Shown one piece after another: positions 2 to 19,600 of a stretch of DNA of 20,757 bases. Every line of letters starts with the position of its first letter. Position 1 is the stretch's first letter. The position numbers and the translations under genes were made by a program. The stretch covers positions 1 to 20,757 of the IMG/VR virus record IMGVR_UViG_3300017770_000228, one strand, 5' to 3'. The notes beneath the pieces were generated by a model, which was not told the origin of the DNA, searched no databases, and saw nothing but the letters and a program-made list of their open reading frames with translations. Origin of the DNA: a virus.

Positions 2-3000
2 GACTATTACAACAATCCATCGGCAAAGGTTGGATTTACTATCGTTGAAGAAGTTGTTACTCCAGAAGAAGATGCATCTCTATATGACAATTCTATTGGA
101 TCTGCAAACTATTCTGCTCCTGGGTCACATAGACTTAAGATTAGTTTAACAATTAAGAAATTTAAACTATCTGAAGCGACAGATAAGAATTTTATTCAAC
201 TAATTACAGTATACAAAGGATTGGTACAGAAAAAAGTATCTCCTACAAACTATAGTTTGATTGAGCAGACTCTTGCTAGAAGAACTTTCGACGAAAGTGG
301 AGATTATATTGTTAATAATTTCTCTGTAGATGTTAGAGAATATGCACAAAAAGATAAGAATGGCGGTGTCTATAAGATTGACGAATTTGGATCATATAAT
401 GGATTAACAGAGTCAGAAGCAAGTAGAAAAATGCTTGCTGGTATTGGACCAGGTAAAGCATATATTAGAGGATACGAAATTGTCAACAAAGAGACAAAAT
501 TTCTAGAAATTAATAAAGCAAGAGAATCTCTTTCAAGTGATAATGTTACACTGAAAACTAAAGGACTTCCCACTTTTAATATTACCAACACGTATGGAAG
601 TGTACCTTTAAATAAAGAAGGTGGAGATCTCACTGCATATCCATATATTAATTTATTCGCTACTTATAATGATGGATCTATTGGTCTCAATGGATCAGAA
701 GAATCTACAGACCACAGACAAACTTTAAATAAAAGAGGAACCACATTAACAAGTAATGATGGTATCAAAACAGTTACTATTAATGTAACAAACACAACCA
801 CTACATTGGCATCGATTACAGATGGTACGTTTGCTAATTTGGCAGATTTGTATTTCATCAAAACAAGAGACGATGCTGGTAATGCACTTACAACAGGAAC
901 ATTAAAGTCATTATCTTTTGCTAAAGTAAACAAACCATTACTCAATGCTAATGACTCTGTTCTATTCCTAGAATTAACAGTAGTTGGAGAGAAAGAAGAT
1001 ATTGAATTATTGATGCTGGAATACGATCCAGGTGATACTAATTATCAAAGAAATATATTTTTATCAGAAGCAGATGCTTCTACTGATAGCAACGAATTAG
1101 GATATATCATTGATTATAGTGAAACTATCACACCTTTAGTTGGTAGAGCAAAACCAAGCAACTATTTCTTAAAGAATAGAGGTCTTGGATTTAATTCGGA
1201 CTCTGACATTATCTTATCTAAAGGAAGATTGGCAGCAGGTGGCGACACATACAATGCCATTTTTGGTCTTTCTTATTTTGATCCTGAATTTTACACAAAA
1301 TTACTACTACAAACTGTCCCACAAAATAATAGTTTTGGAATTGGTAAGTATGTTGTTGGATTGACTAGTGGTGCTTATGGAGTTGTTGAAGGAGCACCTT
1401 CCGGAACATATTCCATTGGTAGTATTCTATTTGTAAAAACTCTTTCTGGTAAATTTGCTTCTGGAGAATCCATTAGAGATGAAGATGGGGTTACAAATAA
1501 AATTGCTAAAGACAATACAATTTCTAAATTTATTGTAGTTAATCGTGGACTTGGATATGCTGATGGTTCTACTCTTGTTATCAATGGCGTAGAATACGAT
1601 GCTGCAGCAGCAGAATTGATGCGCTTGACAAACGGTTCGTTCTATACAGTTGAAATTAATAACAAGTCTGCTTTATCTACTGAGTATTCCCAACCACCAG
1701 CAGTATCAATTAAACAACCAGATGGAGCTGCTAATCCTAGCATTAGTGCTGTTATTTTACCTGTACTAACTAGAAATTCTGTAACAACTTACACACCACA
1801 AAATGTAAAATCTGTAACAGCACAATATGGATCTGGCAATGCCAATATCTTTACTGCAGATTTAGTTACAGATGATCAATCATATGCAGAAATTAAATCA
1901 GTCACTGATTTTACTTTCTTTGGTTCTAAAGGTTATAATTTTATAGAATCTACTAGTTTTAGTGCTGATGCTAGTATTTTGCTACAGCAAGGAGATGTTG
2001 TTCAGTTTTCAGATGAAAGCAACACACTAGTTCGTGCTGTTGTACAATATGCTACTCAAAGACAAGGATCTTCTAAGTCTAGAGTATACATGGATACTGT
2101 CCTTCCTGGTAATGTAACCAATACTAGTATTGTTAGATTACGTCCTAGAGTAGATAATGCTAACTTAGGAACTTTATTATTCCCAACAGGAAGCAATCAG
2201 ATTAAAAAAGTTTCTAATACACCCGAAGAAACAAATATCAAATATTTTTTCCGTAGAGATTTTGTAACTACAGCATCTACGTCTGGTGGTACAATTACTT
2301 TTGCTGCTCAACTACCATTTGGTACACAAAGGTTTGCTACTTTTACTGAAGAAAATTATGTTATTACTGTATTAGATCCAGGTGATGCTCCAAATATCAG
2401 TAAGGGTGATATCATTTACGTTGATGTAGACTCTGTAGAAATTAGTTCTGCTACTGATACAGCAAGTGGATTAACATCTGGTAGTATTAGTCTCAATCTA
2501 CCAACATCATACTTTGGAACTATTCCAGTAAATGGCACATTCCCCAAGTTAAAACTATCTGCAACATTAGAAGTTTCAAATGCCAAACCTAGATTAAAAA
2601 CTTCTATTGAAAACAGAAGGATTGTTGTCACTTCTTCTGGAGATCGTGTAATCCCATTTAGAGGAACTAATTACGATAGTGATGTTGTTGAAACTATTTC
2701 ATATTCAGATGCTTATAAACTGAAATATGTCTATGAAGGTAGCGCAACACAACCACCAACTGTTGATACTTCAGGACAGTTAATTTCTGGAATAGATGTA
2801 ACAGATAGATTTACGTTTGATAATGGACAAAGAGATACCATATATGATGTTTCTCGTATTGTATTAAAACCTGGAAAAGAACAAACTACAGGTCAACTTG
2901 TAATTGCTTTTGATTACTTTGAACAGTCTCAGGGAGACTTCTGTACAATTGATAGTTATATTCATGAAGCGGGTGTAACCGAAGACCTCATTCCCTCATT

Positions 3001-6000
3001 CAATTCTTCTGTCTATGGAATTGTAAATTTAAAAAATTTGTTAGACTTTAGACCTAAGGTTGATTCTGCATCAACTATCGCTGGTTTCCAAGATCAATCT
3101 TCTTTGGCAGATAGTGTAGGTAAATTTGCCGGAGTAGGATCTGTAATTGCTGCTACACCAGCACCAGATCTTGGACTAGAGTACACAATCTCTTTTAGTC
3201 AAGTACAATATCTTGATAGAATTGATGGAGTTTTCTTGAATAAAAATGGAAACTTTATTGTTAAGGAAGGAAACTCTTCATTAAATCCAACTAAACCAGA
3301 TCCTATTGATGATGCGATTGCTTTATTCTATGCTTATATTCCTGCGTTTACTCAAACCAGCAAAGATGTAAGAATTACATCAGTCGATAATCGCCGTTAC
3401 ACGATGCGTGATATCGGCAAACTAGAGAAGCGTATCGAACGTTTAGAGTATTACACTACACTCAGCATCCTAGAGCAACAAGCTTTAAACATGCAGATCA
3501 AAGACGAAATTGGTTTGGATAGATTCAAATCAGGTTTCTTAGTTGATAATTTTGAATCCCATAGATCTGGAAATCTAGTATCTCTTGATTACCAATGTGC
3601 AGTTGATTCTCAGCAATCAGTTTTACGTCCCCAATCTAAAGAAGATTCTCTATTCTTAGAAGAACTCAATACTAGGGAAGATCAAAGATTTGTTTCTGGA
3701 TATAAAAAATCTGGCAACATTATCACTCTACCTTACACTAGTTTAAATCTATTAGGTAATAGTTTTGCTTCAAAAACATTAAACCCAAATCCATTTGTTG
3801 TTTTACAATATGTTGGCGATGCTTCTATATCACCAAGTATCGATCAATGGTATGATCAATCCACAGAACCTCTTGTAGTAGATACAAATACTGATCTATA
3901 TAAGATTTTTCTTGCTAAGCAAGATGTAAGAGAAAGTTTTTCAAGTTTACATAATTCCTTTATCATAAACTGGGTTGGATCTTCTCCATCATTTACATCT
4001 ATCAATTCTCTAGGACAAATCAATTCCTTAGAATCCCAGTCTTCTGTAAGTAAAGCTTCTGTTTCAAGTTCCTCAAATATCAGTCCACAAAATAATGATA
4101 TTGCTAAAGGAGTACAATCTTCTATCGTTAGAGGCAATTCTGTATCTACTTCACTACAATTCTTTGCTAGAAGTCAACCAGTTAAGTTTGTAATTAGTAG
4201 ACTAAAACCAAATACTAATATCTCAGTCTTCTTAGAAGGTCGAGATGTTAGTCGTTGGGTAAATCCAGATCTCAAATTTACTGGTGTTGCTGGTAATTCA
4301 CTATCAGCTTTTAACGGCACTATAACTACAGACAATGATGGCAACGCTAGTGGACTGATCTTATTACCTGCAGGTTTTGCTCCTAGACAAAATGCTACAT
4401 GGGGTGGCGATGTTGATACTGTTGATTATGATACAGATTCCGAAGAAGTAAGAATTACATCTGGAGTTAAGACTTTCAGGTTTACTTCAAGCGATAGCGA
4501 TGCTGATAAACTAACAGTGTCTACATATGCTGAAGTTAAGTATTATGCTACAGGCATTTTACCAGAAAATCCTGTTAGTATTATCTCAACCAAACCATCT
4601 TTCTTTAAAGCAAACGAGGGTGTTCAATTTGTCGATAGTAATACAGATAATCCTGTAAGACCAAATCCACTTGCTCAAACATTTAAAGTTGAAAACTATG
4701 ATGGTGGAGTATTTACTACTGGTATTGATCTTTACTTCAACAAAAAGAGTAATAAGGTTCCCGTCAAAGTATACTTAACCAATGTAGAGTCGGACAAACC
4801 AGGCAAAAATATTATTCCTGGAACAGAAAAAATCCTATCTCCATTTACGTATATTAAATTCTCGGCAAATGGAAATGTTTATATTACCAAAGGCGAAAAC
4901 GTAACGGGAACTACTTCTGCCGCAAGTGGTCCAATTGAAAAGGTTATTGATAAAAATGGTGTTGATTTAATTCCATCTTCTTCTGGTAGGTTCTTGCTAA
5001 CAAATGAGCAAGTATATACACTTGTTCTGAGTAACCACAATGGTCGTTCGTTTAATCAAAACGAACAACTTTCAGTTCCATCAGTAACTCTCAGAAACAA
5101 TACACAAGGAGAATTTGGAGTTCTAACTGTTGCTAAAGATAGTGGCAAAGTTTCAAATATCAGAATTACATCTACAGGTCAAAATTATACTAACGCAATT
5201 TTAACTATTGAAAGTCCACAACTTCCTGGTGGATCTGTTGCTACTGCTAGTGTGGAAGTATCTGACGGCAAACTTTATAATACAGAAATTAGTTTGAACG
5301 GATTTGGATATACAGAACCACCATCGGTCGTCATCAAAGGCATCGGTAACGGCGCTGGAGGAGCGATAATTGAGACTGAGATAGAGATTGATAGTCCGGC
5401 TGTCAGAATGGGTGTAGCAGTGGATCAGAGTGGTCTCACAGATTCCACTGTCCCAACACATTTTGAATTTGAACATCCTGTATATCTACAGAATGACACA
5501 GAGTATGCCATGGCAATTGAAACAGACTCAACTGACTATGAAATTTGGGTATCTAGACTTGGGGAAGTTGATGTTTCTACAAGTACTGTTATTACGACAC
5601 AACCTTCTCTTGGTTCAGTATACAGATCACAAAATGTAGACAACTGGACAGAAGATAATTTTGAGGATGTCAAGTTTACTCTATACAGAGCAGAATTTAA
5701 TATCACCAAAACTGCAGAGTTAGTATTAACAAATGAATCTTTAGGTTATGAGTTATTATCTAAGAATCCATTCAATACTAATGCTACAGCTAATACAAAC
5801 GCGACTTCAAGACTCTTCCGAAACAACAACAACATCATTCAAGTATCACATAGAGATAATGGATTTGAAACTTCTGGATCCTCTTATGTTTTCTTCAAAG
5901 GAGCGGTTGAGACTGGTGGTGTGACTTCTGATGTTTTAAACAGCAAATTATTCCAGATTACAAATAGTGGAATTGATACCTACAATATTGTATCAGATGT

Positions 6001-7435
6001 TGCTGCTTCCGGAAACATTGAAGGTGGTGGTGAAGTAGTATATGCTACTTACAACAGAAAATATGAAATTTTATATCCACAAATTCAATACTTATCATTT
6101 ACCGGAACTAAACTAAGTTCTTCTATCAAAACAACAAATGTTGTTCCCGTAGATTCAACAACTAATAATTACACATCATACTCACAGACAGATTATGAAA
6201 AGACATTTTTAAATGAACCACATTATTTCACGAATCAAAAATTCATTGCTTCTGATATTAATGAGACATTAAACAATGTTACTTCATTAATGTATAAGTT
6301 GTCTCTTTCATCTACTGTTTCATATCTTTCCCCTGTAGTTGATCTTTCCACAGCAAGTGTCAAAACTATATCTAATAGAATTGAATCTGCTACTGGGCAA
6401 GAAGACAGATACGGAAGAAGAGATCAAGTTATTAAGTTCTACCCAATCTATAAGTTTAATATAGGAAATACCAGCGGTAGTCAAATTCAAAACAACCAAG
6501 CTATCGAAGGATATACTTCAAAAGCAGTTGGTACTATTGCTAGAGTTGATGGTTCCACAGTTTATGTGAGACTTAAAACAAGTCAATTCTTTAAGAGAGG
6601 AGAAAGAGTTACATTAGGAAATCAGCCAACGTTAGTTGAGACTCTTAATGGTGTAATTGTACCAGCTGCTACTATTGATACCAACCCAATTGAAGTATTC
6701 CTTGATATTCCTGATGCGGCAACTATGGTTGCCAGAAATCCATCTAATATTTTAGAATCATATGATAACATCATTACCGGAACTGCGGTTATTTGGAACA
6801 ATAAAACCCAAGAATTGGAAGTAAGGAATGATACACAACCATTAGCAGATGACTTCACAGGAAGAATTATTGACAATGTAATATACAATAGAAATTCTGT
6901 TGTAAATGATCAACTTTCTGATATCTTTAGAGTAGGAGACTTTCTTAAGTATCCAAATCAAGTAGATGAGGAAGCAAGATTCTTAGAAATTAAAGAAATT
7001 ACTTATGCTAATGGAATAACATATGTTTCGGACAACACTTCCAAAAACAGTTCTGCTGTGGCAAAATATGTTACAAAAGAAGTTGTAATTAATAATCCGG
7101 CAACTGCTGTTGATGTTCATATAACATTAAATTCTAAAGACATTAATGATGTTCAAGTTCTTTATAAATTTAAAAAATCTTCGAGTCAAGAAAACTTTGA
7201 AGACATTAACTGGATATACTTTAATGAAGATGGATCTCCAAATTCACTAGAGATTGCTACAGCAGAAAATACAATTTCTTCTGTTATAGAGAAACAATCT
7301 TCGTATCAAGACATTACTTATAGTGTGTCTGATCTCCCAGAGTTCTCATCATTTGCTGTTAAGATTGTTATGAAGGGAGTTGATCCAGCATTTGTTCCCA
7401 AAATTCAAGACATCAGAGCAGTAGCAGCATTCTAA
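2..7435 (+). CDS. DUF4815 virion structural protein, 5'-truncated
   Basis: The frame is open from base 2 with no stop until TAA at 7433-7435. The TTG at 221 is therefore internal and the true start lies left of the window. I see 2477 residues (numbered from base 2). Residues 1-170 look like the DUF4815 start found in T4-like cyanophage proteins (APGSHRLKISLTIKKFKL, then RRTFDESGDYIV). Residues 390-530 carry glycine-rich beta modules (NRGLGF, TSGAYGVV, NRGLGYADG). Residues 1131-1215 are a conserved charged helical part (RRYTMRDIGKLEKRIERLEYY). Residues 1565-1900 resemble the C-terminal beta domain of such proteins (GIDLYF, PVYLQNDTEYAM, WVSRLGEVD), interrupted by GxGY repeats at about 1690-1795. 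The role is probably a baseplate or fibre-associated virion protein; no enzymatic motif is visible. Family assignment is from remembered conservation, so the exact structural role is open. Confidence 0.88.
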   Translation, partial: DYYNNPSAKVGFTIVEEVVTPEEDASLYDNSIGSANYSAPGSHRLKISLTIKKFKLSEATDKNFIQLITVYKGLVQKKVSPTNYSLIEQTLARRTFDESGDYIVNNFSVDVREYAQKDKNGGVYKIDEFGSYNGLTESEASRKMLAGIGPGKAYIRGYEIVNKETKFLEINKARESLSSDNVTLKTKGLPTFNITNTYGSVPLNKEGGDLTAYPYINLFATYNDGSIGLNGSEESTDHRQTLNKRGTTLTSNDGIKTVTINVTNTTTTLASITDGTFANLADLYFIKTRDDAGNALTTGTLKSLSFAKVNKPLLNANDSVLFLELTVVGEKEDIELLMLEYDPGDTNYQRNIFLSEADASTDSNELGYIIDYSETITPLVGRAKPSNYFLKNRGLGFNSDSDIILSKGRLAAGGDTYNAIFGLSYFDPEFYTKLLLQTVPQNNSFGIGKYVVGLTSGAYGVVEGAPSGTYSIGSILFVKTLSGKFASGESIRDEDGVTNKIAKDNTISKFIVVNRGLGYADGSTLVINGVEYDAAAAELMRLTNGSFYTVEINNKSALSTEYSQPPAVSIKQPDGAANPSISAVILPVLTRNSVTTYTPQNVKSVTAQYGSGNANIFTADLVTDDQSYAEIKSVTDFTFFGSKGYNFIESTSFSADASILLQQGDVVQFSDESNTLVRAVVQYATQRQGSSKSRVYMDTVLPGNVTNTSIVRLRPRVDNANLGTLLFPTGSNQIKKVSNTPEETNIKYFFRRDFVTTASTSGGTITFAAQLPFGTQRFATFTEENYVITVLDPGDAPNISKGDIIYVDVDSVEISSATDTASGLTSGSISLNLPTSYFGTIPVNGTFPKLKLSATLEVSNAKPRLKTSIENRRIVVTSSGDRVIPFRGTNYDSDVVETISYSDAYKLKYVYEGSATQPPTVDTSGQLISGIDVTDRFTFDNGQRDTIYDVSRIVLKPGKEQTTGQLVIAFDYFEQSQGDFCTIDSYIHEAGVTEDLIPSFNSSVYGIVNLKNLLDFRPKVDSASTIAGFQDQSSLADSVGKFAGVGSVIAATPAPDLGLEYTISFSQVQYLDRIDGVFLNKNGNFIVKEGNSSLNPTKPDPIDDAIALFYAYIPAFTQTSKDVRITSVDNRRYTMRDIGKLEKRIERLEYYTTLSILEQQALNMQIKDEIGLDRFKSGFLVDNFESHRSGNLVSLDYQCAVDSQQSVLRPQSKEDSLFLEELNTREDQRFVSGYKKSGNIITLPYTSLNLLGNSFASKTLNPNPFVVLQYVGDASISPSIDQWYDQSTEPLVVDTNTDLYKIFLAKQDVRESFSSLHNSFIINWVGSSPSFTSINSLGQINSLESQSSVSKASVSSSSNISPQNNDIAKGVQSSIVRGNSVSTSLQFFARSQPVKFVISRLKPNTNISVFLEGRDVSRWVNPDLKFTGVAGNSLSAFNGTITTDNDGNASGLILLPAGFAPRQNATWGGDVDTVDYDTDSEEVRITSGVKTFRFTSSDSDADKLTVSTYAEVKYYATGILPENPVSIISTKPSFFKANEGVQFVDSNTDNPVRPNPLAQTFKVENYDGGVFTTGIDLYFNKKSNKVPVKVYLTNVESDKPGKNIIPGTEKILSPFTYIKFSANGNVYITKGENVTGTTSAASGPIEKVIDKNGVDLIPSSSGRFLLTNEQVYTLVLSNHNGRSFNQNEQLSVPSVTLRNNTQGEFGVLTVAKDSGKVSNIRITSTGQNYTNAILTIESPQLPGGSVATASVEVSDGKLYNTEISLNGFGYTEPPSVVIKGIGNGAGGAIIETEIEIDSPAVRMGVAVDQSGLTDSTVPTHFEFEHPVYLQNDTEYAMAIETDSTDYEIWVSRLGEVDVSTSTVITTQPSLGSVYRSQNVDNWTEDNFEDVKFTLYRAEFNITKTAELVLTNESLGYELLSKNPFNTNATANTNATSRLFRNNNNIIQVSHRDNGFETSGSSYVFFKGAVETGGVTSDVLNSKLFQITNSGIDTYNIVSDVAASGNIEGGGEVVYATYNRKYEILYPQIQYLSFTGTKLSSSIKTTNVVPVDSTTNNYTSYSQTDYEKTFLNEPHYFTNQKFIASDINETLNNVTSLMYKLSLSSTVSYLSPVVDLSTASVKTISNRIESATGQEDRYGRRDQVIKFYPIYKFNIGNTSGSQIQNNQAIEGYTSKAVGTIARVDGSTVYVRLKTSQFFKRGERVTLGNQPTLVETLNGVIVPAATIDTNPIEVFLDIPDAATMVARNPSNILESYDNIITGTAVIWNNKTQELEVRNDTQPLADDFTGRIIDNVIYNRNSVVNDQLSDIFRVGDFLKYPNQVDEEARFLEIKEITYANGITYVSDNTSKNSSAVAKYVTKEVVINNPATAVDVHITLNSKDINDVQVLYKFKKSSSQENFEDINWIYFNEDGSPNSLEIATAENTISSVIEKQSSYQDITYSVSDLPEFSSFAVKIVMKGVDPAFVPKIQDIRAVAAF

Positions 7436-7444
7436 TTTCCGCAT

Positions 7445-7651
7445 ATGAGTTACATTAAAGTAGAGGGTCATGATGGTCTCGTTAGAGACGAGACCACAGG
7501 TGCTATCATCAATTTCGACAATTCTGCTATAGAATCTAGACGCAAATCAAAACACCTTGGTTCCGCGTTAGAAGACATAAATATGTTGAAGGATGAAATC
7601 TCTGAAATCAAATCCCTACTTAGAGAGTTAGTAAGAAATGCCAGCAATTAA
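7445..7651 (+). CDS. 68-residue coiled-coil protein, probably virion-associated
   Basis: ATG at 7445 lies 9 bases after the stop of the DUF4815 gene, and the TAA at 7649-7651 lies inside the next gene, an overlap of 14 bases. The N-terminal half (MSYIKVEGHDGLVRDETTGA) is polar. The C-terminal half, about residues 38-65, has heptad-spaced Leu and Ile (ALEDINMLKDEISEIKSLL) and should form a short coiled coil. There is no signal peptide or membrane segment. I see no Shine-Dalgarno in front of the ATG, so translation may depend on coupling to the upstream gene. Small proteins with this opening sit between giant structural genes in T4-like cyanophages. A fibre-attachment or oligomerising role is inference only. 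The reality of the gene is supported by its tight packing and clean frame. Confidence 0.8.
   Translation: MSYIKVEGHDGLVRDETTGAIINFDNSAIESRRKSKHLGSALEDINMLKDEISEIKSLLRELVRNASN
7474..7496 (+). other. Perfect 9-bp inverted repeat within the 68-residue gene
   Basis: TGGTCTCGT (7474-7482) and ACGAGACCA (7488-7496) are exact reverse complements around a 5-base loop, TAGAG. The hairpin starts 30 bases after the ATG of the small coiled-coil gene. No U-run follows, so it is not a standard intrinsic terminator. It could affect mRNA stability or translation, or be incidental to coding for GLVRDETT. Confidence 0.6.
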
Positions 7652-10600
7652 TGTCGCTAGAACTGATACCTTTGAAAAACAAAGGGTAAAAATTAATGAA
7701 GTCGCTGCTCAAATTTTTAACGTTACTGCAGGTGGATCTGATCTATCTACAGGAAATTTAAAATTAGGTGATGGTTCAGTATCTATTCCGAGTTTGGCAT
7801 TTGTAAATGATGCTGCGTTAGGCATCTATAGAAATGGGGCAGGTGTATTAGGATTTGCCAGTAACAGTAAAAAATTATCAGATCTGTCAGCGGCAAACGT
7901 TAAGTATTACAGAGATTTTGTAATTGAGAAAAATAGTCTCGATACTACCGGCATCGCTGTTTTAAATACTGGTAGTAATTATGACGCTGGATCTTATTCG
8001 GGAATTGCAGTAATTGGTGGTACTGGTGATTCTGCTACTGTTGGTATCGAAGTGGATGGATTTGGTGGATCTGTTACATCTACTGGTTCCGCATATGTAC
8101 CAGGAGTTTATTTAAATATTCCAGTTCTTAGTAACGGATCTGGTACTGGTGCTCTTATCGACTTCACAGTTGATGAAATTGCTGGTGCTATTACTAATGG
8201 TGGTATTAACTATGCCACTGGTTCATATACAAACTTAGCAGTAATTGGTGGTAGTGGTCAGCAGATGACTGCTGATGTCACAATTAGTGCGTTTGCTGCC
8301 ACAGTAACTGGCGGAACTAACTATCCAAACGGGGTGTTTAAGAGCATCCCAATGACGGGTGGTAATGGAACAGGAATGCTGATGAATCTCAGTGTTCAAA
8401 ATGGTGGTGTACAACCTGTTGGTGGAGTTGATAGCAGCGAATTCGTATCTGTTACATCTCAGTACACTGCAGGGGATGTTGTAACAGGAACTATTCCTCT
8501 TGCAGGAACACAAACATTTGTAGTTAAATCTTCTTTAGGTAACAAATATTTCCTTGATGGATTTGAAGGAGGAGATTTTAATCTATTAAAAGGTAAAACT
8601 TATATTTTTGAAGTTGTTGATCCAACAAATGGTTCACACCCAATGTTCTTTTCATCTACACAAGATGATGCGAACACTATTTTAGATGCTGCTGATGGTT
8701 TTACATATGTTCTAGATGGAGTTACAGTAACTGGATCAGGATTTGTTTCAGGTTATTTTGGTGCTACTACTAGAAGTATTACATATGCAGTACCAGCAAA
8801 CCCAGCAAATGCTGTTGTTTATTATGGATGTGCTGTTCACCCATTAATGGGTGGTGCTATTACTCACTCAGATCCAAATCCACAACAAAGTGGATTCCAA
8901 ATGGAAATCGAAACTGTTGGTGGTAGTGTCACAGAATTTATAGTCAATGCTCCAGGAAATGGTCTTTACCAAGCAGGAGATGTCATCTCTGTTGCTGCAG
9001 CAGATTTATATGATGTAGACACTGCCAATGCAGGATCATTAGGTTCTGGTATGCAGATTACTCTTGGTGGTAATTTTGGTGCTATTTCAGCATTAGATCA
9101 GATCGCTGATTTTGGTAATGGATATCAAACTGGAGATATTCTTACATTAGCAAGTGCAGTTAGTAATGTCAACACTTATGCTAGAGGAGAATTGACCTTT
9201 AGTGGTATTACCTTCACATCTACAGCAGGTGTTACCGCAATTCAGTTTACAGGTAATGCTTTTGGTAGTGCTAGAACATATAATAGTATTGCCGTACAAA
9301 ATATCACTAGTGGTGGTAGTGGATTAATTGTTGATGTTGTTATCTCGGAAGGTGGTGGTAATTCTTTCTATGAATCTGTAACCATTGTAACAGCTGGTAC
9401 TGGTTACTTACCAGGAGATTCATTATACATTGCGGGTAACACCTTAGGTGGTACTTCTGGTGTTCAACCTGGATCTGGTGGTAATGATCTTGCTATTAGT
9501 GTTTCTACAATTGATGCTGGTAGTCCTCAGATTACAGTTTCCGATACTACTGGTATTGAAGTTGGTGATGGTGTTGAAATTGTTCAAAACATTAATAACC
9601 CAGGACAAATTCCTGGTGGTGTAACTGTTCTTAGTGTTGATAGTGGAACACAGTTCACTATGTCAGAGGGACCAACTATCCCTGGTAGTGCAGATCTTAA
9701 AATTGTCAACTCAAATTTAGATAATTTAACAGTTGCTTCCACGACAGGTATTGTTGTTGGAATGGAAATTACCAAAGTAAGTGGTAACGGTGAACTTGTT
9801 TCTGGCACAACAGTTAATGAAATCATTAATGCAACTACGTTAAAAATTTCTATTAATCCATCAGTTGCTGGCACAATGGTTGTCAACTTTGAACCAGAAT
9901 ATGGTGGTGGTACTGGATTCCAATATACAGTTGGCACATTAGGTTTTGTTAGTGAGGTAAGTATTGTAGAAGGTGGTAATGGATATACCATTGGAGATAC
10001 TTTAGAAGTTAGTCCGTTTGATCTTGTCCAACCAGAAGTATATGCAGTTACTAACTTAGAAGTTGATAAGATTAGTTTTGTAAGTAATGTAATTCCTGCT
10101 GCCACATTTAGCGTAGGAGATACAGTAGGAGATGCTGGTGGATCAATTCTAGCATCTACAGTAACAGTTTCTACGGTTGTAGCAGCTGCTAATGATGGTG
10201 TATACAGTGGGGTAGTACAGAGTGCAACATCTGGAAATGGCGTTGGTGCTACCTTTGATATACAAAGAGACAACACTGGTGCTATTCTGTCCGCCGTAAT
10301 TACTACAGGATCTGAAGGATCTTTCTACGCAGATAATGATACTATCACAATTCCTGGCGCATCTATTGGTGGTAATACACCTGCCGATAACCTGACAATC
10401 ACAGTTAACTCTGTCAATGCTGCTGGTGATCCTGTAGTTGTTCGTAAAGTGGCAACTTCTGCTGGTAACATTGATTACATTATAGTAGATAGATTCGGTT
10501 TTTCTGCAGGAGACATTCTTGTAAATGCAAGTGCTCCAACAGTAGGATATGAGACTGATACTGCCGAAACAGAGTATCGTTACTTTGTTGATTTAAATGA

Positions 10601-13142
10601 TGGTAATGGAGCAACAATGACTCCATCTTGGACTGTATATTCTGGTAACAGTTACGTATTTGATCTTAGCGATGGAACAAATGGCGGTCATGATTTTGCT
10701 CTGTCTACATTTAGGGATGGTATTTGGGCACCTAGTAGGAGAGAAAACCTTAGTACTACTTTAGAAACTACTAGTAAAATTATTACCATCACTTCAACCA
10801 GTGGAATTACTGCTGGTATGGTTGTACAAAAAGTATCTGGAGATGGTATTCTTGGGGATAATACAACTGTTGTATCTGTAGATAGTGCGACTCAATTGAC
10901 ACTGAGTTCAAATCCAACTACACCAGGTGAAGTTGTTATCAATATCTTTGGTGCACAATATACGGATGGTGTTACTGTTGATGGTACAAATGTAACAATT
11001 AAAGTTTCAGATACAACACCTACTCTTTATTATTTCTGTTCTACAGAAAATATTGATCACCAAAACGAAGGTGGCGATGATAACGATGAAGCACAAATTA
11101 CAGTTAGCACAAATAATCCTAAGACATTTGGTAGTGGATTCTCATTATCTGTAACTGATGTTATTGTAGAGGAAGTTGTAAAAGGAACTGTACAAGATGG
11201 TTTCTTTGAAGTTCAAAAACTTACAACACCATTAGCAGAAGCGACTGAAGCTGTGATTGCTAATGCGACTATTAGTACATTACTAACATCTACAGCAATT
11301 ACATGTGGTAATTTCTCTGGTCCTGCAGCAGGAAATATCGACATTGCTGTAGATGATCCTCTAACTGGAATTGTTAATGTTACTGCTGCTACATTAAACG
11401 TAGGTTCTAAGGTTCAGTTTGCGGCAACAACAGGTGATCTTACTGTTACTAATATCCTCAAGGGTAGTGAAGTAAGAATTGGTGATTACTTAAAAATTGA
11501 AAATGTTGATAATTCGTTCAGATCACTTGGTGGATTTGATGTTAAGTTTGTTCCTGATACAGGTAGAATTGCGGATGTTTTAACTAATACTGCTATTGCT
11601 GTTCCATCTGGTAATACGTCAGAAAGACCTGTTGCTGGTATCGTAAAAGATGGTTGTATTAGATTTAACACAGACACAAATCAATACGAAGGTTATAGTT
11701 CACAAACTTCTTCATGGGCGTCATTAGGTGGTGTTAGAGATCTAGATGGAAATACATTTATCTTAGCGGAAGAGAGTGTAGGTAATAACGACAATACTTT
11801 ATGGTTTATTAACGACAATATTAATACGGTTAGGTTCACTCCAAATCATCTTGAATTTGTCAACATGAAGAAGATGCGTTCTGTGAATGTGACTGCTCCT
11901 GCATATACAGAGTGGGCAGCAAACGTTCCTGTAACGGAAGGGCAATATCTCAAGTATAAGAATAACCTTTATCTTGTTCCTAGTGGTGGAGCTGGTACTA
12001 CTGCTACAAGTGGTAGTGAACCAACACATACAAGTGGCACTCTACCTAATGGTTCTGCACAACTAGAATACTCTCAAATCGCAGTTGCTCCTCTAACATT
12101 TGAGGATATTGAAGAACTGAGAATTGGACCTCTAGGTGATTTGCCATTAAGTATTAATGGCGATTTAAGATTAGCAGATAATGTAGTATCAACTGATGTT
12201 AGTGATCTACTTCTAAGACCTAACTCTGGCAAAAAAGTTATTATTGATGCAGCAACATCTCTTGTAATTCCAAATGGATCTACTGGCGAAAGAGGAACAG
12301 CAGAGCAAGGTTCTATTAGATACAATACAACCAATCTAACATATGAAGGTTATGATGGAACCAACTGGGGTTCTCTTGGTGGTGTCAAAGACGTTGATCA
12401 AAACACTTATATTATTCCGGAAACCGTTCCTGGTGCTAATGAAAATATTTTATACTTCTACAATGATGGAAACAACTCATTACAACTCACCACGTCAGCA
12501 CTTGATTTCTATACCGTAGATACAATCAGATCGCAATCAAGCAATCAGTTTGAGATTACTGCAAACTTAATGACATTTAATAATGCAGAAACTACATTTG
12601 ATAATACTGATACAACTAGGACATTCCTACATACTTCAAAACCATATTTTGATCTTGGTGTTTCCACAGGCATCTATGTAGATCCTATTCTTAGATTGGA
12701 TGATCAAGGTGATGTATATCTAAACACTGGTTTTGGCACTGGTAACTATAATGGAGTTAAGGTCTTTGATGGAGATCTTAAAGAATTTGAACTTGCAGAT
12801 ATTAAAATTTCATCTGAGAAAGTAACTTTGATTAAAGGTTCTGCGAATAATGGTGGTTCCAACATATATGATACAACTGTTGCTAAAGGAGCAAAGGTAG
12901 TTGTAGTGGCAGAAAATCAAGCAGATGGTTCTAAAGAATTTATTGAATTTGGTGTAACAGATGATGGTACAGATATATTCCATACAGAGTATGGAAACTT
13001 AAGAACTGGATACCAATTGATTGTTCCAGAGTTTGAATTTACTTCTGGAAATGAAGCAAGGTTAAATATTACATTAGGAGCTGATGTTCCTACTACAAAT
13101 ACCGTAGTTATTACTTTCTCATCCACAATTACCAAGAACTAA
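7638..13142 (+). CDS. Giant mosaic fibre-like virion protein with cupredoxin-like domains
   Basis: This 1834-residue protein runs from ATG 7638 to TAA 13140-13142. GAGAG at 7623-7627 is a plausible ribosome site. The start is supported by a cyanophage-type N terminus (ARTDTFEKQRVKINEVAAQI, residues 6-25). Next is a tail-fibre motif (LGIYRNGAGVLGF, about 62-74), then four tandem GxxY repeats (112-255). A cupredoxin-like domain lies at 294-412 with His334, Cys398, His401 and Met404. GxGYxxGD repeats follow (about 430-800). Copies of a TTGI/VSG module start at 629, 694 and 1047. A second cupredoxin-like domain lies at 981-1158. A duplicated RxNT-YEGY-W-SLGGV segment lies at about 1300-1415 and 1523-1632. 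The C-terminal domain (about 1716-1834, VAKGAKVVVVAENQADGSKE) resembles ends of other cyanophage fibre proteins. Only four cysteines occur. The role is probably a tail or baseplate fibre exposed on the virion; no enzyme motif is seen. Confidence 0.88.
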   Translation: MPAINVARTDTFEKQRVKINEVAAQIFNVTAGGSDLSTGNLKLGDGSVSIPSLAFVNDAALGIYRNGAGVLGFASNSKKLSDLSAANVKYYRDFVIEKNSLDTTGIAVLNTGSNYDAGSYSGIAVIGGTGDSATVGIEVDGFGGSVTSTGSAYVPGVYLNIPVLSNGSGTGALIDFTVDEIAGAITNGGINYATGSYTNLAVIGGSGQQMTADVTISAFAATVTGGTNYPNGVFKSIPMTGGNGTGMLMNLSVQNGGVQPVGGVDSSEFVSVTSQYTAGDVVTGTIPLAGTQTFVVKSSLGNKYFLDGFEGGDFNLLKGKTYIFEVVDPTNGSHPMFFSSTQDDANTILDAADGFTYVLDGVTVTGSGFVSGYFGATTRSITYAVPANPANAVVYYGCAVHPLMGGAITHSDPNPQQSGFQMEIETVGGSVTEFIVNAPGNGLYQAGDVISVAAADLYDVDTANAGSLGSGMQITLGGNFGAISALDQIADFGNGYQTGDILTLASAVSNVNTYARGELTFSGITFTSTAGVTAIQFTGNAFGSARTYNSIAVQNITSGGSGLIVDVVISEGGGNSFYESVTIVTAGTGYLPGDSLYIAGNTLGGTSGVQPGSGGNDLAISVSTIDAGSPQITVSDTTGIEVGDGVEIVQNINNPGQIPGGVTVLSVDSGTQFTMSEGPTIPGSADLKIVNSNLDNLTVASTTGIVVGMEITKVSGNGELVSGTTVNEIINATTLKISINPSVAGTMVVNFEPEYGGGTGFQYTVGTLGFVSEVSIVEGGNGYTIGDTLEVSPFDLVQPEVYAVTNLEVDKISFVSNVIPAATFSVGDTVGDAGGSILASTVTVSTVVAAANDGVYSGVVQSATSGNGVGATFDIQRDNTGAILSAVITTGSEGSFYADNDTITIPGASIGGNTPADNLTITVNSVNAAGDPVVVRKVATSAGNIDYIIVDRFGFSAGDILVNASAPTVGYETDTAETEYRYFVDLNDGNGATMTPSWTVYSGNSYVFDLSDGTNGGHDFALSTFRDGIWAPSRRENLSTTLETTSKIITITSTSGITAGMVVQKVSGDGILGDNTTVVSVDSATQLTLSSNPTTPGEVVINIFGAQYTDGVTVDGTNVTIKVSDTTPTLYYFCSTENIDHQNEGGDDNDEAQITVSTNNPKTFGSGFSLSVTDVIVEEVVKGTVQDGFFEVQKLTTPLAEATEAVIANATISTLLTSTAITCGNFSGPAAGNIDIAVDDPLTGIVNVTAATLNVGSKVQFAATTGDLTVTNILKGSEVRIGDYLKIENVDNSFRSLGGFDVKFVPDTGRIADVLTNTAIAVPSGNTSERPVAGIVKDGCIRFNTDTNQYEGYSSQTSSWASLGGVRDLDGNTFILAEESVGNNDNTLWFINDNINTVRFTPNHLEFVNMKKMRSVNVTAPAYTEWAANVPVTEGQYLKYKNNLYLVPSGGAGTTATSGSEPTHTSGTLPNGSAQLEYSQIAVAPLTFEDIEELRIGPLGDLPLSINGDLRLADNVVSTDVSDLLLRPNSGKKVIIDAATSLVIPNGSTGERGTAEQGSIRYNTTNLTYEGYDGTNWGSLGGVKDVDQNTYIIPETVPGANENILYFYNDGNNSLQLTTSALDFYTVDTIRSQSSNQFEITANLMTFNNAETTFDNTDTTRTFLHTSKPYFDLGVSTGIYVDPILRLDDQGDVYLNTGFGTGNYNGVKVFDGDLKEFELADIKISSEKVTLIKGSANNGGSNIYDTTVAKGAKVVVVAENQADGSKEFIEFGVTDDGTDIFHTEYGNLRTGYQLIVPEFEFTSGNEARLNITLGADVPTTNTVVITFSSTITKN
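7971..8397 (+). repeat. Four tandem GxxY-GxY repeats encoding 37-39 residues each
   Basis: The aligned glycines are residues 112, 150, 189 and 226 of the giant fibre-like protein, giving spacings of 38, 39 and 37. Each unit reads roughly TGG-x-NY-xxG-xY-xxIxVxGG-x-GTG followed by a beta strand. Examples are TGSNYDAGSYSGIAVIGG and GGINYATGSYTNLAVIGG. The regular period suggests a beta-solenoid or stacked beta fold. The copies differ at many DNA positions, so they are old duplications. Confidence 0.8.
8517..8880 (+). other. Cupredoxin-like domain with complete type 1 copper ligand set
   Basis: Residues 294-414 of the fibre-like protein. The order is strand NKYFLDG, strand KGKTYIFEVVD, NGSHPMFF with His334, a loop or insert, then YYGCAVHPLMGG with Cys398, His401 and Met404, and a final strand. 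The Cys-x2-His-x2-Met loop has the same spacing as the amicyanin copper loop, CTPHPFM, with a proline after His in both. An upstream His on a strand is what type 1 copper proteins require. His334 to Cys398 is 64 residues, longer than the 39 in amicyanin, so an extra loop is needed. Copper binding is inference. Confidence 0.6.
9522..9893 (+). repeat. Two adjacent copies of a TTGI / KVSG beta module
   Basis: Copy one starts at residue 629 (ITVSDTTGIEVGDGVEIV, then GGVTVLSVDSGTQFTMS). Copy two starts at residue 694 (LTVASTTGIVVGMEITKVSG, then GTTVNEIINATTLKIS). Each is about 60 residues with the pattern TVxSTTGIxVGMxV, a glycine turn, TTVxxVxxxTxLxxSxxP, and a closing strand. A third copy lies about 900 bases downstream at 10776-10952. 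Confidence 0.7.
10578..11111 (+). other. Second, degenerate cupredoxin-like domain split by an insert
   Basis: Residues 981-1158 repeat the first cupredoxin-like pattern. RYFVDL matches KYFLDG, SGNSYVFDLSDGTNGGHDF matches KGKTYIFEVVDPTNGSHPMF, and LYYFCSTENIDH matches VYYGCAVHPLM. The equivalent residues are His1018, Cys1134 and His1141, but the Cys-His spacing is widened to six intervening residues and no Met follows. Between the His and Cys strands sits a third TTGI/KVSG module (residues 1047-1105). It probably does not form a normal type 1 copper site. Confidence 0.5.
10776..10952 (+). repeat. Third TTGI / KVSG module, inserted in a cupredoxin-like domain
   Basis: Residues 1047-1105 (ITSTSGITAGMVVQKVSGDG, then TTVVSVDSATQLTLS, then GEVVINIFG) align with the copies at residues 629 and 694. 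This copy interrupts the second cupredoxin-like domain between its His and Cys strands. Confidence 0.65.
11535..11882 (+). repeat. Tail-fibre segment, copy 1 of internal duplication
   Basis: Encodes residues about 1300-1415 of the fibre-like protein: a strand region ending VPSGNTSERP, then CIRFNTDTNQYEGY, SSWASLGGVRDLDGNTFI, NTLWFINDN and MKKMRS. The RxNT-x-YEGY-x-W-xSLGG pattern is common in tailed-phage fibre proteins. It matches copy 2 at 12204-12533 motif by motif. Confidence 0.72.
12204..12533 (+). repeat. Tail-fibre segment, copy 2 of internal duplication
   Basis: Encodes residues about 1523-1632: VIPNGSTGERG, SIRYNTTNLTYEGYDGTNWG, SLGGVKDVDQNTYI, NILYFYNDG and VDTIRS, in the same order as copy 1. 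The copies are separated by about 105 residues that include an extra strand-rich stretch and a short Gly/Ser/Thr linker. Confidence 0.72.
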
Positions 13143-13143
13143 A

Positions 13144-13644
13144 ATGGCAACTACAATCGAAAAATTTGATTCCGCAGGTGGTTTTTCTATCGGAAAAACT
13201 GTGATTGTCGATGAAAGTCGAAATGGTAAAGATCTGAATACTTTAGAAATTAAAAACTCTAACTATGCAGATAGTAATACTACCACATATATTTTAAGAG
13301 GTATCAACACAGCATCTCTAGAATTAGATGGCGTAGGAGCACAAATTCCTATTGCTAATAGCACCATGAATTTTATTACTGGACATATTATTGCAGTAAA
13401 TGCTTCTGGTGTTATCTTCACAAGTAAATTAGAATCTGCGGTGTATTGCGACGGAGTAGGTTCAGTTACTGTAATGTCAACTATGGAAACAATCATCAAA
13501 GATGATATTCCTGCGGGTCAAACTTGGTCAATTACTCCAGTGGGAGCAACTAATAGATTTTCTTATACTACTATTAGAGCAGGCACAACATCTACTATTA
13601 AATGGGCAGTATCAACTCAAGTTACAACACTTGAGTGGGCATGA
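13144..13644 (+). CDS. Small probable virion structural protein, 166 residues
   Basis: ATG at 13144 follows the previous stop by one base, so it is almost certainly translated from the same message. TGA is at 13642-13644. The start MATTIEKFDSAGGFSIGKTV and the internal YILRGINTASLELDG resemble a small conserved protein that follows fibre-like genes in T4-like cyanophages. The sequence is rich in Thr, Ser, Ile and Val and predicted to be mostly beta strand, with no signal peptide, membrane segment or catalytic motif. The C-terminal part (GQTWSITP, RAGTTSTIKWAV) looks like a compact beta domain. A capping, decoration or fibre-attachment role is possible, but I do not recognise a characterised function. 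No strong Shine-Dalgarno is visible, which fits translational coupling. Confidence 0.82.
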   Translation: MATTIEKFDSAGGFSIGKTVIVDESRNGKDLNTLEIKNSNYADSNTTTYILRGINTASLELDGVGAQIPIANSTMNFITGHIIAVNASGVIFTSKLESAVYCDGVGSVTVMSTMETIIKDDIPAGQTWSITPVGATNRFSYTTIRAGTTSTIKWAVSTQVTTLEWA

Positions 13645-13696: not shown

Positions 13697-16600
13697 ATGT
13701 CAATTCATATTAATTCCGATAAGGAAAAGTTTCAGGGTTCCAAACCTAAGCTGGTCGGTGATAATGAACTTACTGTTAGAGGCGGTACAGGTTCATTAGA
13801 AAAAGAAATTCTAAGGACGCAGTTAGATGCTAATACGGGTTTACCCCGTGTTGGTATTAATAGAACGGGGCAGAGAGTTAATGATGTTAAAATTTTAACT
13901 GGTGGTTCTGGATATATTTCGCCACCAATTATAACAATATCGGCACCTATTGGTGGGGGTGGAGTCCAAGCACAGGGTTCTGCATTTATCTTTAATGGTC
14001 AGGTTGTATCTATTGCTGTCAATGATCCCGGCAGTGGATATACTCAAGCTCCTACAGTTACCATTCAAGCTGGTGGCGGTGTTGGTGCTTCTGCTGAGGC
14101 ATTACTTGATACTGTTGATTTTGAACTTGACATCAACGGTGCTATTAGAACCTCTACGTCTATCATTTCCGATACGGCGAGAATCCTCAACTTGGATATC
14201 GACAACTTCGTTACTCCAAACGCAGCATTTAGAGCACCCTCTCTAAAAACTTATATTAATAATTCGGGTACTTTATGGTCCTCGAATATTATTCTACAGG
14301 AAAATGCGTACAGGTACTTTGGACAGAACGTATATCAAGCATTAAACTCAGGACAAACTGGATCTAGCGCACCTGTTCATACGGATGGCGAAGCACTAAA
14401 TGGTGAAGTTAATTTCAAACATATTGGTTTTCGTGTAGTTGACGAAAATGATTTTGGATATTCAGAAACTGGTGCATCTGGGGTATTCCCTCGTTCTATT
14501 ACTCCTTTACTAGGAGATAGATCAGACAAGATTGCTACTACAGAATACGTCCTCAACCTAGCAACGAATGACGTTGGTGGTCGTATTTACGTTTCACAAA
14601 CTATTGGTTCTGACTTAAACGATGGTCGTTCTGCCGTAAACCCAGTTCGTTCTATCAAGAAAGCAGCACAACTTGCATGGGCGACTCCTGGTGTTAAGGA
14701 GACCCTTATTGTTTCTGGTGGTGACTACGTAGAAGATAACCCAATTTCACTGCCACCTGACGCATCAGTTGTTGGCGATAACCTTCGTCTCGTAATTATC
14801 AGACCTGCCAACCCCGGCAAGCATATCTTCAAGTTTGGTGATAAAAACTACGTTACTGGTGTCACTTACAGAGATAAGATTGATTCCAATGGCGATGCAG
14901 TTGCGACTTGGGATTTCGCAATGGTCTTTGACGATAAACAGCGTATCTTAATTGATGCTGATGTCAATGGAGATTTTGGTACTAGTTTCCCAATCGGTCA
15001 TCAAATTTTTGGACCACAACAGTTCAGAGTTACATTCCAAAATAACACTGGTCTATCTACTTTAATTACTGGATTGAGCGTAATTGGTGTTAACACTGGT
15101 TCCAGAGCAAATATACAAAAAGTTGTATTTGATGATATTACTGGTCCTAGTGCATACATTAGTGGTACTCTTGATATTACACTAGATAGTGGTTCTTTTG
15201 TTGAGGGAGAACAATTTAATTTTGTAACTTCTATTAGTTATAGCGTAGGAAGTCCCTTAGCATTAACGTCTACCGGAACAACTTCTGCAAACAAAATTAC
15301 ATTTAGCACTGATCCAACTTCTATAACCCCAGCTGGAACATACGTATATTTAAGTGATGATGGTAATGCAATATTTACTCCTTCTGCTGGTTACTACGAA
15401 GTAACTCAAATTGAACCAAATGATATCAACAATCCAACTTCATGGGAAGTTAGTTACTTACCTGTTCTTGGATCTACTGGATGGACCGCAATTCAAACTG
15501 CGTCTATTGAAGTATTTACCGGAAATGCTCAGGTAGAAACATTAAATACTACAGCTCTCAAATCAATTCGTGCTGAGGGAGAAGTTGTTTCTGTAGATGA
15601 AGATTACACATCACTTTTGCCTATCTCCAGATTAGATTTCTCATTACAAGGAGATACCAGTATTGCAACTGGTGGATTCCAAGGCACCCAATTTGGGAAT
15701 GCAGAAGATCTTGGTGGTATTGTATTTTATACAAATGCTCTGGTTGGCAGAAATAATACACATGACTTTAAAGAAGGTCAAGAGATCTTAATTGAAGGTC
15801 TCCCAACTTCTTCACCTGATCTATCTGCGTTAAATGGCAGACAGAGAATTTATAAAGTATTAGAAGATGCTGATGGTCGTTGCAGACGATTTGTCATTCC
15901 TAAAAAAATGCCAGCTCTTACTGATGCGGAATTTGATCCAGGTCAATTTGCAACTGTTAAGACAGCAACAAAATCTATTACCTTATCGCTACTTAACTCC
16001 CCAAACACATTCCCAATTAGTTCTCCTGTAGATAGGAGGTTCCAAGACGCCTGTACGTTACTGCGTAACAATAGAGATTTTATTGCTGATGAAGTCGTAG
16101 GTAAAATTAACGATCAATTTGCAAGATACTTCTACTCTGCATATAATATCAGCGGAAACTCATTTGATATTTTTGTAGGTCTTGCAGAACAATCTCACAC
16201 ATATGTTTCTGGTGGTACTGTAAAGTTTGGTGGTACTACTTATAACGTTTTAAACTTTGTTTACAGTAACGCTGTAACTGGTGTTGCAACTGTAACAACA
16301 GATAGTCTTGTTGCGGGTTTGAATGAAGATGATCACATCAAACTAGAGGGAATGACTCTAGAATGTGATGCTGGTCAAAAAGTTTATCCATCTTATAGTT
16401 CACCAAGTGCTACTGGCAGTGATGGTGATAGTCAGTGTAAAGAAGATATTGTTCACTTTATTAACGCAATCATTAGAGATTTAGAATTTGGATCTAATCA
16501 TAATGTAATTGAAGCAGCTCAAAAATATATTGTAGATGGTAAGATTACTTACATTGAAGATGAAATTATTCAAAATGCTCGTGCTATTGAATATGCTAGA

Positions 16601-19600
16601 GAACTAGCAATTTATTGTATGAGGAACTGGAGAACCGAAAATGGTGCTCCATCGGATCCCATCTACACACCACTACATTCATCTTTACCAAGATATTTTG
16701 ATGATACTATTATTACATTAACTGCAGGAACACCTGCTTGTGCTAACGTAGCATCTGCTATTGATACTTTATCATTCCTTTGGTCTGATGTCATTACCAA
16801 TAATGCGTCCGGCACATATCTAGATGCTGCGTATTTAATTTCTAGAAATAAAGATCTTATTGCTGATCAAGCACTTATTGATACGGAAGCACAATTTCCT
16901 TCATTAAATCTTAGCGATACCAACCAAAGAAAATGTCGTAGAGATATTAGAATTGTACTTGATGGTCTTATCAAAGACTTGGTACTTGGTGGCAATAATG
17001 GAATTGTTACTGTTGCTGAATCATACTTCACTGGTGTTCAGTTAACTGGTATTGCCGAAGCGCAGCGTCCTTCTACGATATATGCTTTCCAGAGAGTTAA
17101 AATATATGCATTGGAAACAATGCGTAACTGGTCTGATGGTGTAGTCGATTCTGTAACACCAGTTGGTGCCATTTACAATTCTACTACAGGTGATTTAAAT
17201 ATCACTTACCCTGTTTCTGGTGGTGGTATTCCACAGGTAGGAGACAGAATTGCGTTTACAGAAGATGCTATCACTTTCTCCTGTGATATGGGTGGTGGCG
17301 CTGCTAACCACGCAAGTCCAAACAGATTTGATTCCAACTACGGAAAGAGTTACGAAATCAATTCTGTAACTGGAACGACAATGATTGCCATTGGATTGAA
17401 CGTTGGAGACGCAGGAACTGCAGCAGGAATTGCTCATACATTTGTTAGTGCAAAAACAAACGGAACGATCATTATATTCAATCCGACTACAGTAACTTCC
17501 ACCATTCCTAGGTTTGATGATTGGAATATCTTATTGGATTCCACACCACTATGTGCGAATGTCGCAACTTCCATTAATACAATAATGGATCTGTTTGAAG
17601 ATATTTTAGATGAGACAATTTCTGCTGGAACAACAGTTAAAACTTTTGGAACATTATTTGATCCAGCATTGCTAATAACATATCCTGATAATTTTATCTA
17701 TGATTCCAATAATGTAAGAATGGCAATTCGGGGTGACTTTGATGATAATCCTATCATCGAAGCATCACCATACACTCAAAATGCATCTGTTATCTCCTTC
17801 CTAGGTGGTGGTGGTGCTCTAATTGATGGTAGTAAGGTCAAACAACCTAACTGTCCTTTCCCTGGTCTTGAACTAGATGGATCCGCATCCTTCCCTAATC
17901 AGGGTAAGTCGATGGTTGCTGCGGCATTCACGATTGTATCTTTTGGTGGCACAGGTTATAAAGTTATAAACGATGGTTATACTCAGTTAGTTTCTGTCTT
18001 TGTTATCTTCTGTGCTGATGGCGTTCTTTGTGAATCTGGTGGTTATGCATCTATCACCAACTCCGCTACTAACTTCGGACAGTATGCTCTAAGAGGTATT
18101 GGATTTAGAGAAGATCCATATACATTTGATATTGCAACAATCTCTAACGTTTCTTCTACTCCTACTGGTAGAACTATTCTAACAGTAACTGGTTTAGGAA
18201 GAGAACCACTAGAGCATTATGTTGCTAAAATTGATGGTTATAGAAATACTAATACAGACATCGAATACTTTGTTGATGTTGTTGCTGCAGTTACAGTTGG
18301 TCCTCCTTTCTCTGCTCAGTTAACATTTGACGATGGCACAGGTGGTGCCATGGATCTAACCGATAATGCAACTAATCAGGCAGTATCTACTGGTTCATTG
18401 TTAGGTAAGACAATCAATCTACACAGACCATCTATTGTTAACTCTTCTTCCCACACTTGGGAATTTGCTGGTTCGGGAACTAATTACTTAGCACTACCTG
18501 AGAACGGTGGTACTAAGATTGAAGCATTTGAACAAGTTTCCGAACAGTATGGACGTGTATATGTCTCTGGTACTGACGAACTTGGCGACTTTAAGGTTGG
18601 TACGTTTGCTAGAATTGAAAACAGAACTGGTAATATTACTTTCACTGGTACGGTTACAATTTCTGAAGTTGAATTCTTGAAACTGAAAGGTGGCGACGTT
18701 GTTGTTACTGGTTTCGACGCATCCAACACACTTGGTGGCGCAACTGCGACCGACTCTAAACTACCCACACAAAAGGCAGTTAGAGATTATATCACTAACA
18801 ACCTTGGACCTTACATCAACAAACCATACTCTACGAATGCTGTTCCTAGAGCACTGGTTGAACTTACTGATTCTGGTAAAATTTCTATCGACCAGATCCC
18901 AGCACTTAGACCATTTAGTGTCTTCACTGTTGCCAACCAAGCAGAAAGAACTTCACTAGAAGGAGCACTTGCTGGTGATATTGCGATCCAACAGGATACA
19001 TCCACATCATTCATTCTAAACAATGATAATTCTAGTTTGTTCCTAGGGTTTGCTGTAGATCCAGCATTATCATTTACTATTGGTGATGTATTTACCGGTA
19101 GCATTTCTACTGGACGTATCCAATCAACTGAATACAGAAAGGGTGTTGTATATCAAATTAATGTCAACAACGGTGGTTCTGGATATGTAACCCCACCGGT
19201 AATTACATTTGCTGGTGGCAATCCAGAAGCAGGTGCAGTCGCAGCTGCCGCAACTTGTACTATTGCCAATGGTACAGTAGTTACTGTAACAATCATCGAC
19301 TTCAATGGTTATAAAGGTGGTTTTGGATATACCACTGCTCCTACTATAACATTCGCTGCTCCTCCTGGAGCTGGTGTACAAGCACAAGGTAATGCTTTAC
19401 TTGAAAGCAGATTGTATGGCAATATTGTTAATAATATTAAAATTGAAGACACCGATACTATTAACGATAGTACATCACCTACTCCAAATACAATTAACAT
19501 TAACAGAGGTGTTAATACATCTTCATTCGATATTAATAACTGGGTATCTCTATCTTCCAACCAGATTGCTGCATCCGATATTACATCCGGTGTTATTGAA

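Follow-up and report, generated by a model that had tools for sequence, protein, structure and literature searches.

We analyzed a 20,757-base fragment of viral DNA (IMG/VR record IMGVR_UViG_3300017770_000228; this whole fragment is "the window" below). It contains four large open reading frames (ORFs), all on the + strand, as are all of the features that we describe. The second (ORF 2, 7638-13142) encodes a virion structural protein (PHROG 6005) of 1834 amino acids that carries two copies of a cupredoxin-like domain. Copy 1 (8517..8880, residues 294-414) has an intact type-1-like ligand set: His334 as the N-terminal copper-type ligand (8637..8639, in GSHPMF), Cys398 (8829..8831), His401 (8838..8840), and Met404 as the axial ligand (8847..8849). 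Cys398, His401, and Met404 all lie within YYGCAVHPLMGG, which gives an amicyanin-type C-x2-H-x2-M loop with a proline after the histidine. An earlier, sequence-only reading of this DNA had placed these four residues in residues 294-414 with amicyanin spacing, and our check of the sequence agrees; its counts (4 Cys and 9 His in the protein, with 2 Cys and 5 His inside the two cupredoxin-like regions) were also right.

The sequence-only reading took residues 294-414 for a cupredoxin-type domain, and structure prediction bears this out. An AlphaFold2 (AF2) model of copy 1, built on an alignment of 99 relatives, was confident (predicted local distance difference test, or pLDDT, 92.1; predicted template modeling score, or pTM, 0.86), and Foldseek identified it as a cupredoxin. 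In a search of the PDB, the best match was rusticyanin (E = 2.4e-4, probability 1.00), and other matches were AcoP, small laccase, multicopper oxidases, and plastocyanin. The strand topology (from DSSP) is the cupredoxin arrangement: His334 (model residue 47) is just ahead of strand 49-52, Cys398 (model residue 111) is the terminal residue of strand 106-111, and His401 and Met404 (model residues 114 and 117) are in the next loop, between strands 106-111 and 119-124. Thus, copy 1 is modeled as a Greek-key beta-sandwich of the cupredoxin superfamily. In a search against predicted viral structures, cyanophage tail-fibre, baseplate-connector, and proximal long-tail-fibre proteins are among the best matches. 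We also noticed beta-sandwich proteins of giant viruses that match the same fold (BFVD A0A481YVH3, A0A481Z6J5, and A0A481Z7Q7, from Marseillevirus LCMAC201 and Pithovirus LCPAC302/304), as well as two cyanophage proteins that are labelled as S8/S53 peptidase domains and match the cupredoxin-like fold (BFVD A0A0E3F583 and V5URI3). ORFs of 671-977 amino acids in the related cyanophage genomes W01, W09, W10, and G157 carry the domain by profile, and their size is like that of the S8/S53-labelled proteins.

Sequence profiles point weakly towards cupredoxins. In a profile search of the PDB, copper proteins were seven of the eight best matches (E = 0.1-1). Across our profile searches of the PDB, copper proteins matched at E = 0.07-1, with antibody matches mixed in, and searching the PDB with the single sequence gave nothing convincing. 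The plastocyanin/azurin family PF00127 matches 4 of 99 family members below its cut-off (best E = 0.022); none of the 99 reaches the curated cut-off, and the window protein gives no match to it. Indeed, a Pfam search of the 1834-residue protein returned zero family matches. An hhalign comparison to the pseudoazurins of SAR86 gave E = 0.0013 with a low probability of 18%, while five control regions gave E = 0.13-0.66. We considered PF25489, CBM_4_9, and ribosomal L31 as known families for the domain, but these matches were weak and we judged them to be unreliable.

The domain is a widespread family that extends well beyond one mosaic protein, which the sequence-only reading had missed. Starting from a virion protein of cyanophage S-TIM5 that bears the same motif, we found the domain in 354 public phage records, at 536 places, which rules out a one-off of this protein. 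(The matches listed from our family scans of IMG/VR, at least 600 rows per scan, are a lower bound.) The carriers are phages of Synechococcus, Prochlorococcus, Pelagibacter, and Methylophilales, together with a small number of marine or uncultured records. Each phage record that we examined has one to five profile matches, some of which are halves of one split copy. The annotated matches are mostly tail-fibre, baseplate, gp9-like, or structural proteins, and the remainder are hypothetical or unannotated. The family profile matches copy 1 strongly (core at residues 301-408, independent E-value, or i-E, of 1e-25).

In the family profile, the four ligand columns are invariant for His, Cys, His, and Met across about 200 distinct sequences. 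Because some of these sequences had been gathered with patterns containing C, H, or M, we also collected a ligand-blind sample of loci that were found solely via the ligand-free pattern G-x-T-Y-x-F-D-Q-x-D (one unrelated ORF was excluded by hand). C-x2-H-x2/3-[M/Q] is kept in 78 of these 92 sequences, with Gln replacing Met in three. When the sample was grouped into 60 clusters, the C-terminal set was intact in 49, and every one of the 49 has a His in the upstream stretch; 5 of the 11 clusters that lack the C-terminal set have no upstream His. This joint loss is significant (P = 8e-5, Fisher's exact test over the 60 clusters), and the test is conservative in that unrelated histidines were counted in at least two clusters. 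So, the four residues do not vary freely among homologues, whether in the ~200 relatives, in the ligand-blind sample, or in the orthologues described next. The sequence-only reading had argued that chance was unlikely, and the conservation of the four positions among homologues excludes it: a chance motif would not account for homology together with joint retention of the ligands.

To compare the two copies, we used 126 distinct full-length orthologues of the window protein, drawn from named phages and from two IMG/VR scans. At least one canonical site is kept in 122 of the 126, and its location tends to alternate. Where copy 1 is canonical (87 orthologues), copy 2 is canonical in 7, has a C-x5/6-H-x2-E loop in 49, and has no site in 31. 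Where copy 1 is absent (36 orthologues), copy 2 is canonical in 33, of the Glu type in 1, and without a site in 2. In the remaining three, copy 1 is present without ligands, and copy 2 is canonical in two and of the Glu type in one. Overall, copy 2 is canonical in 35/39 orthologues without a canonical copy 1 versus 7/87 with one, and the two remain negatively associated when the orthologues are clustered at 90, 80, 70, or 60% identity (P = 4e-11, 6e-7, 5.5e-5, and 0.0017, respectively, Fisher's exact tests). The clearest cases are the orthologues L361 and L483, in which copy 1 persists ligand-free and copy 2 is canonical. In a tree built from the C-terminal region, the state changed at least 13 times for copy 1 and at least 15 times for copy 2. 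A stricter rule, with exactly one canonical site in every orthologue, fit the first 74 of 74 orthologues but failed in the wider set of 126.

The ligands also tend to be kept or lost as a set in these orthologues. Each of the 129 canonical copies has the upstream His (87/87 for copy 1 and 42/42 for copy 2), versus 10 of the 36 ligand-poor copies (10/33 for copy 2 and 0/3 for copy 1). The axial residue of the canonical sites is Met in 117 and Gln in 12, with no other residue seen. These 12 are close relatives of the window (L338-L351) that carry Gln in place of Met404, which amounts to a natural swap of the axial residue between sister phages. We had at one point counted them as lacking a site, but we dropped this because Gln stands in for Met. 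Type-1 copper coordinated by Gln is documented, for example in TsNirK (PMC6400189).

In the window itself, copy 2 is not amicyanin-type, and the sequence-only reading had overlooked its alternation with copy 1 across orthologues. This copy is split (10557..11123, modeled as residues 974-1162). It spans residues 982-1144, and the family profile matches its two parts at residues 982-1060 and 1104-1136 (i-E of 1e-12 and 1e-6). The model is confident (AF2 pLDDT of 93.5), although with the insert in place it had no significant Foldseek match in the PDB. Its N-terminal His is His1018 (10689..10691), and C-x2-H-x2-M is replaced by Cys1134-x6-His1141-x2-Glu1144 (11037..11069). A loop of this type (C-x5/6-H-x2-E) is found in copy 2 of 51 of the 126 orthologues, the N-terminal His accompanies it in 51/51, and the combination is retained across 11 clusters at 70% identity. 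From this conservation, the His/Cys/His/Glu set may be a different type of metal site, new for the cupredoxin scaffold; the glutamate presumably recalls nitrosocyanin. The insert that splits copy 2 (10755..10946, about residues 1040-1103) resembles two tandem modules elsewhere in the same ORF (residues 624-694 and 698-760), and these repeats suggest that it is an independent, mobile beta module.

The other ORFs in the window are ORF 1 (2-7435, open at its start; DUF4815, PHROG 358), ORF 3 (13144-13644; 166 amino acids, PHROG 5449, virion structural protein), and ORF 4 (13697-20755; tail-fibre PHROG 5342). The gene order is that of the Kyanoviridae Synechococcus phages S-H9-1, S-RSM4, S-CAM4, S-RIM44, and ACG-2014e/h/i/j, and so the window appears to come from the baseplate and fibre genes of a T4-like virus of the cyanophage type. 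A gene sized like ORF 3 comes after the orthologue of ORF 2 in every orthologous locus of a named phage that we read. Residues 1515-1631 of the 1834-residue protein match a baseplate-wedge PHROG. Together with PHROG 6005, this makes "fibre-like," as the sequence-only reading described the protein, a fair label, but that the protein is a fibre is unproven.

The domain is not confined to phages: 71 of 151 genomes from the SAR86 order carry it, in proteins of about 170-190, 320, 640, or over 3,000 amino acids, with profile matches down to E = 1e-39. We read seven of these proteins in full (167-636 amino acids), and all have a lipoprotein-type signal near the start (ACGGGG or similar) and intact ligands. 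Some of these predicted surface lipoproteins (L205:3872-4396; L540-L546) contain little besides the domain, and some have cadherin-like repeats.

We propose that residues 294-414 are a predicted type-1-like copper-binding cupredoxin module within a virion protein of the baseplate/fibre region and that the module serves the chain as a whole; we consider this reading likely. The ligand pattern, the breadth of the family, the set-wise retention and loss, the toggling between Met and Gln, and the alternation of two sites are observed, as is the cupredoxin fold of the model. That the four-ligand site binds copper is an inference, though a quite probable one. Under this proposal, the predicted site (His334, Cys398, His401, and axial Met404) would be built into the virion protein and displayed by the particle, and virus particles probably carry bound copper. 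The metal would not be needed for the domain to fold, given that the site can occupy either of two positions, about 680 residues from each other, and that copies without ligands persist. Instead, it would serve the chain or the virion as a whole, most likely by contacting the host surface via the copper site or by carrying bound copper.

Several observations weigh against this proposal. The Foldseek TM score for copy 1 is low, at about 0.5, and the PDB matches also include peptidylarginine deiminase. The peptidylarginine deiminase domain is cupredoxin-like and holds no copper, so the fold alone would not prove copper. Also, no Pfam or NCBIfam model reaches the domain above its cut-off. The alternation is imperfect, with two canonical sites in 7 orthologues and none in 4, and in some relatives elsewhere the whole site is lost. 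Finally, a sign test based on the tree is borderline: across 10 independent pairs, 6.9 changed in opposite directions and 0.7 in the same direction (median P = 0.07). This support for alternation is suggestive and in the right direction.

The ligand residues could instead be relics in a beta-sandwich that has a decorative, Ig-like role. Phage fibres often bear decorative Ig-like beta-sandwich domains, and some members of this family retain the domain without any ligand. However, the four ligands are the family's most conserved positions, and they are retained or lost together, with one set somewhere in 122 of the 126 orthologues, so we view this as very improbable. If a metal is present, it might stiffen the domain within the particle as a structural staple (Zn, Fe, or Cu), much as His-x-His iron is held in T4 gp37. 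Virion appendages do hold structural metal: gp37 contains iron, and iron has been proposed for the tail fibres of marine phages (PMC11705849). In addition, the identity of the metal cannot be read from sequence alone. But the ligand-free form of copy 2 persists in many orthologues, and copy 2 of the window was modeled confidently without a canonical site, so the fold seems to be independent of the site. Also, the replacement of Met solely by Gln is a better fit to type-1 copper than to Zn or Fe. We therefore consider a staple unlikely.

The remaining alternatives concern what bound copper would do. The copper might act in electron transfer or as a redox trigger, with arrival at a photosynthetic cell signaled by oxidation of the Cys or by whether the copper is Cu(I) or Cu(II). 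This is the least probable of the explanations because neither a partner nor an electron path is apparent, because phages of the non-cyanobacterial SAR11 and Methylophilales carry the domain too, and because two positions separated by about 680 residues seem to be equally serviceable. Alternatively, the virion's copper might be recognized by host copper-uptake or surface proteins, as a copper "Trojan (Ferrojan) Horse." The domain is in fibre or baseplate proteins of Synechococcus, Prochlorococcus, SAR11, and Methylophilales phages, the named phage groups that we matched either infect these aquatic hosts or are marine records, and a precedent with iron has been proposed (PMC11705849). We regard such piracy or docking as somewhat unlikely; it is a special case of the virion copper module that we prefer and does not contradict it. 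A broader version of our proposal is that many abundant ocean phages have type-1-like copper sites on their tails or baseplates as a selected standard part, which engages the host or moves copper as a counterpart to the "Ferrojan Horse," and that a new metal site with His, Cys, His, and Glu (C-x5/6-H-x2-E) has arisen in copy 2 on the same scaffold. We offer this tentatively, as a possibility that we would not bet on.

The cupredoxin fold and the type-1 site are already known. The roles known for copper-type cupredoxins are those of electron carriers and enzymes and not of virion components. In the open-access literature (subscription journals were outside of this search), we found no report of cupredoxins in phage particles, nor of their use in marine phage virion proteins as a standard module whose site roams. 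If our proposal is true, then the conserved, unannotated site in hundreds of marine phage records makes virions a copper-binding component of seawater. Among the picophytoplankton studied, Prochlorococcus is reported to be the one most sensitive to copper (PMC13374865), so this metal is of consequence for hosts of these phages. Mutating Cys398 would directly probe whether the metal has a role in phage attachment.

It is useful to compare the domain to known systems. Like amicyanin, copy 1 of the window has a C-x2-H-x2-M loop with a proline after the His, an upstream His before a strand, and a beta-sandwich. It differs in that 64 residues separate the N-terminal His from the Cys and in that it sits in a virion protein, whereas amicyanin is a periplasmic electron carrier. 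No sequence homology to amicyanin was detectable, and amicyanin was absent from the sequence matches in the PDB and from the 50 best fold matches. Rusticyanin, AcoP, and plastocyanin are the best fold matches in the PDB and share the ligand order His...Cys...His...Met, but with a TM score of about 0.5, 12-15% identity, and longer ligand loops (C-x4-H-x4-M in rusticyanin and C-x2-H-x4-M in plastocyanin). The Gln sites of stellacyanin-type proteins and TsNirK resemble those of the 12 near relatives and of the three ligand-blind family members, whereas copy 1 of the window has Met and amicyanin-like loop spacing. The SAR86 lipoproteins belong to the same family by profile, with intact ligands and a lipobox-type start in the seven that we read, but they are cellular and are predicted to be lipid-anchored, unlike the phage protein. 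Finally, T4 gp37 holds iron via His-x-His, and iron has been proposed in the tail fibres of marine phages (the "Trojan/Ferrojan Horse"; PMC11705849). These are also phage appendage proteins that hold a metal, as we predict for the window domain, but they have another fold and other ligands, with octahedral His-x-His iron in place of a copper-type site.
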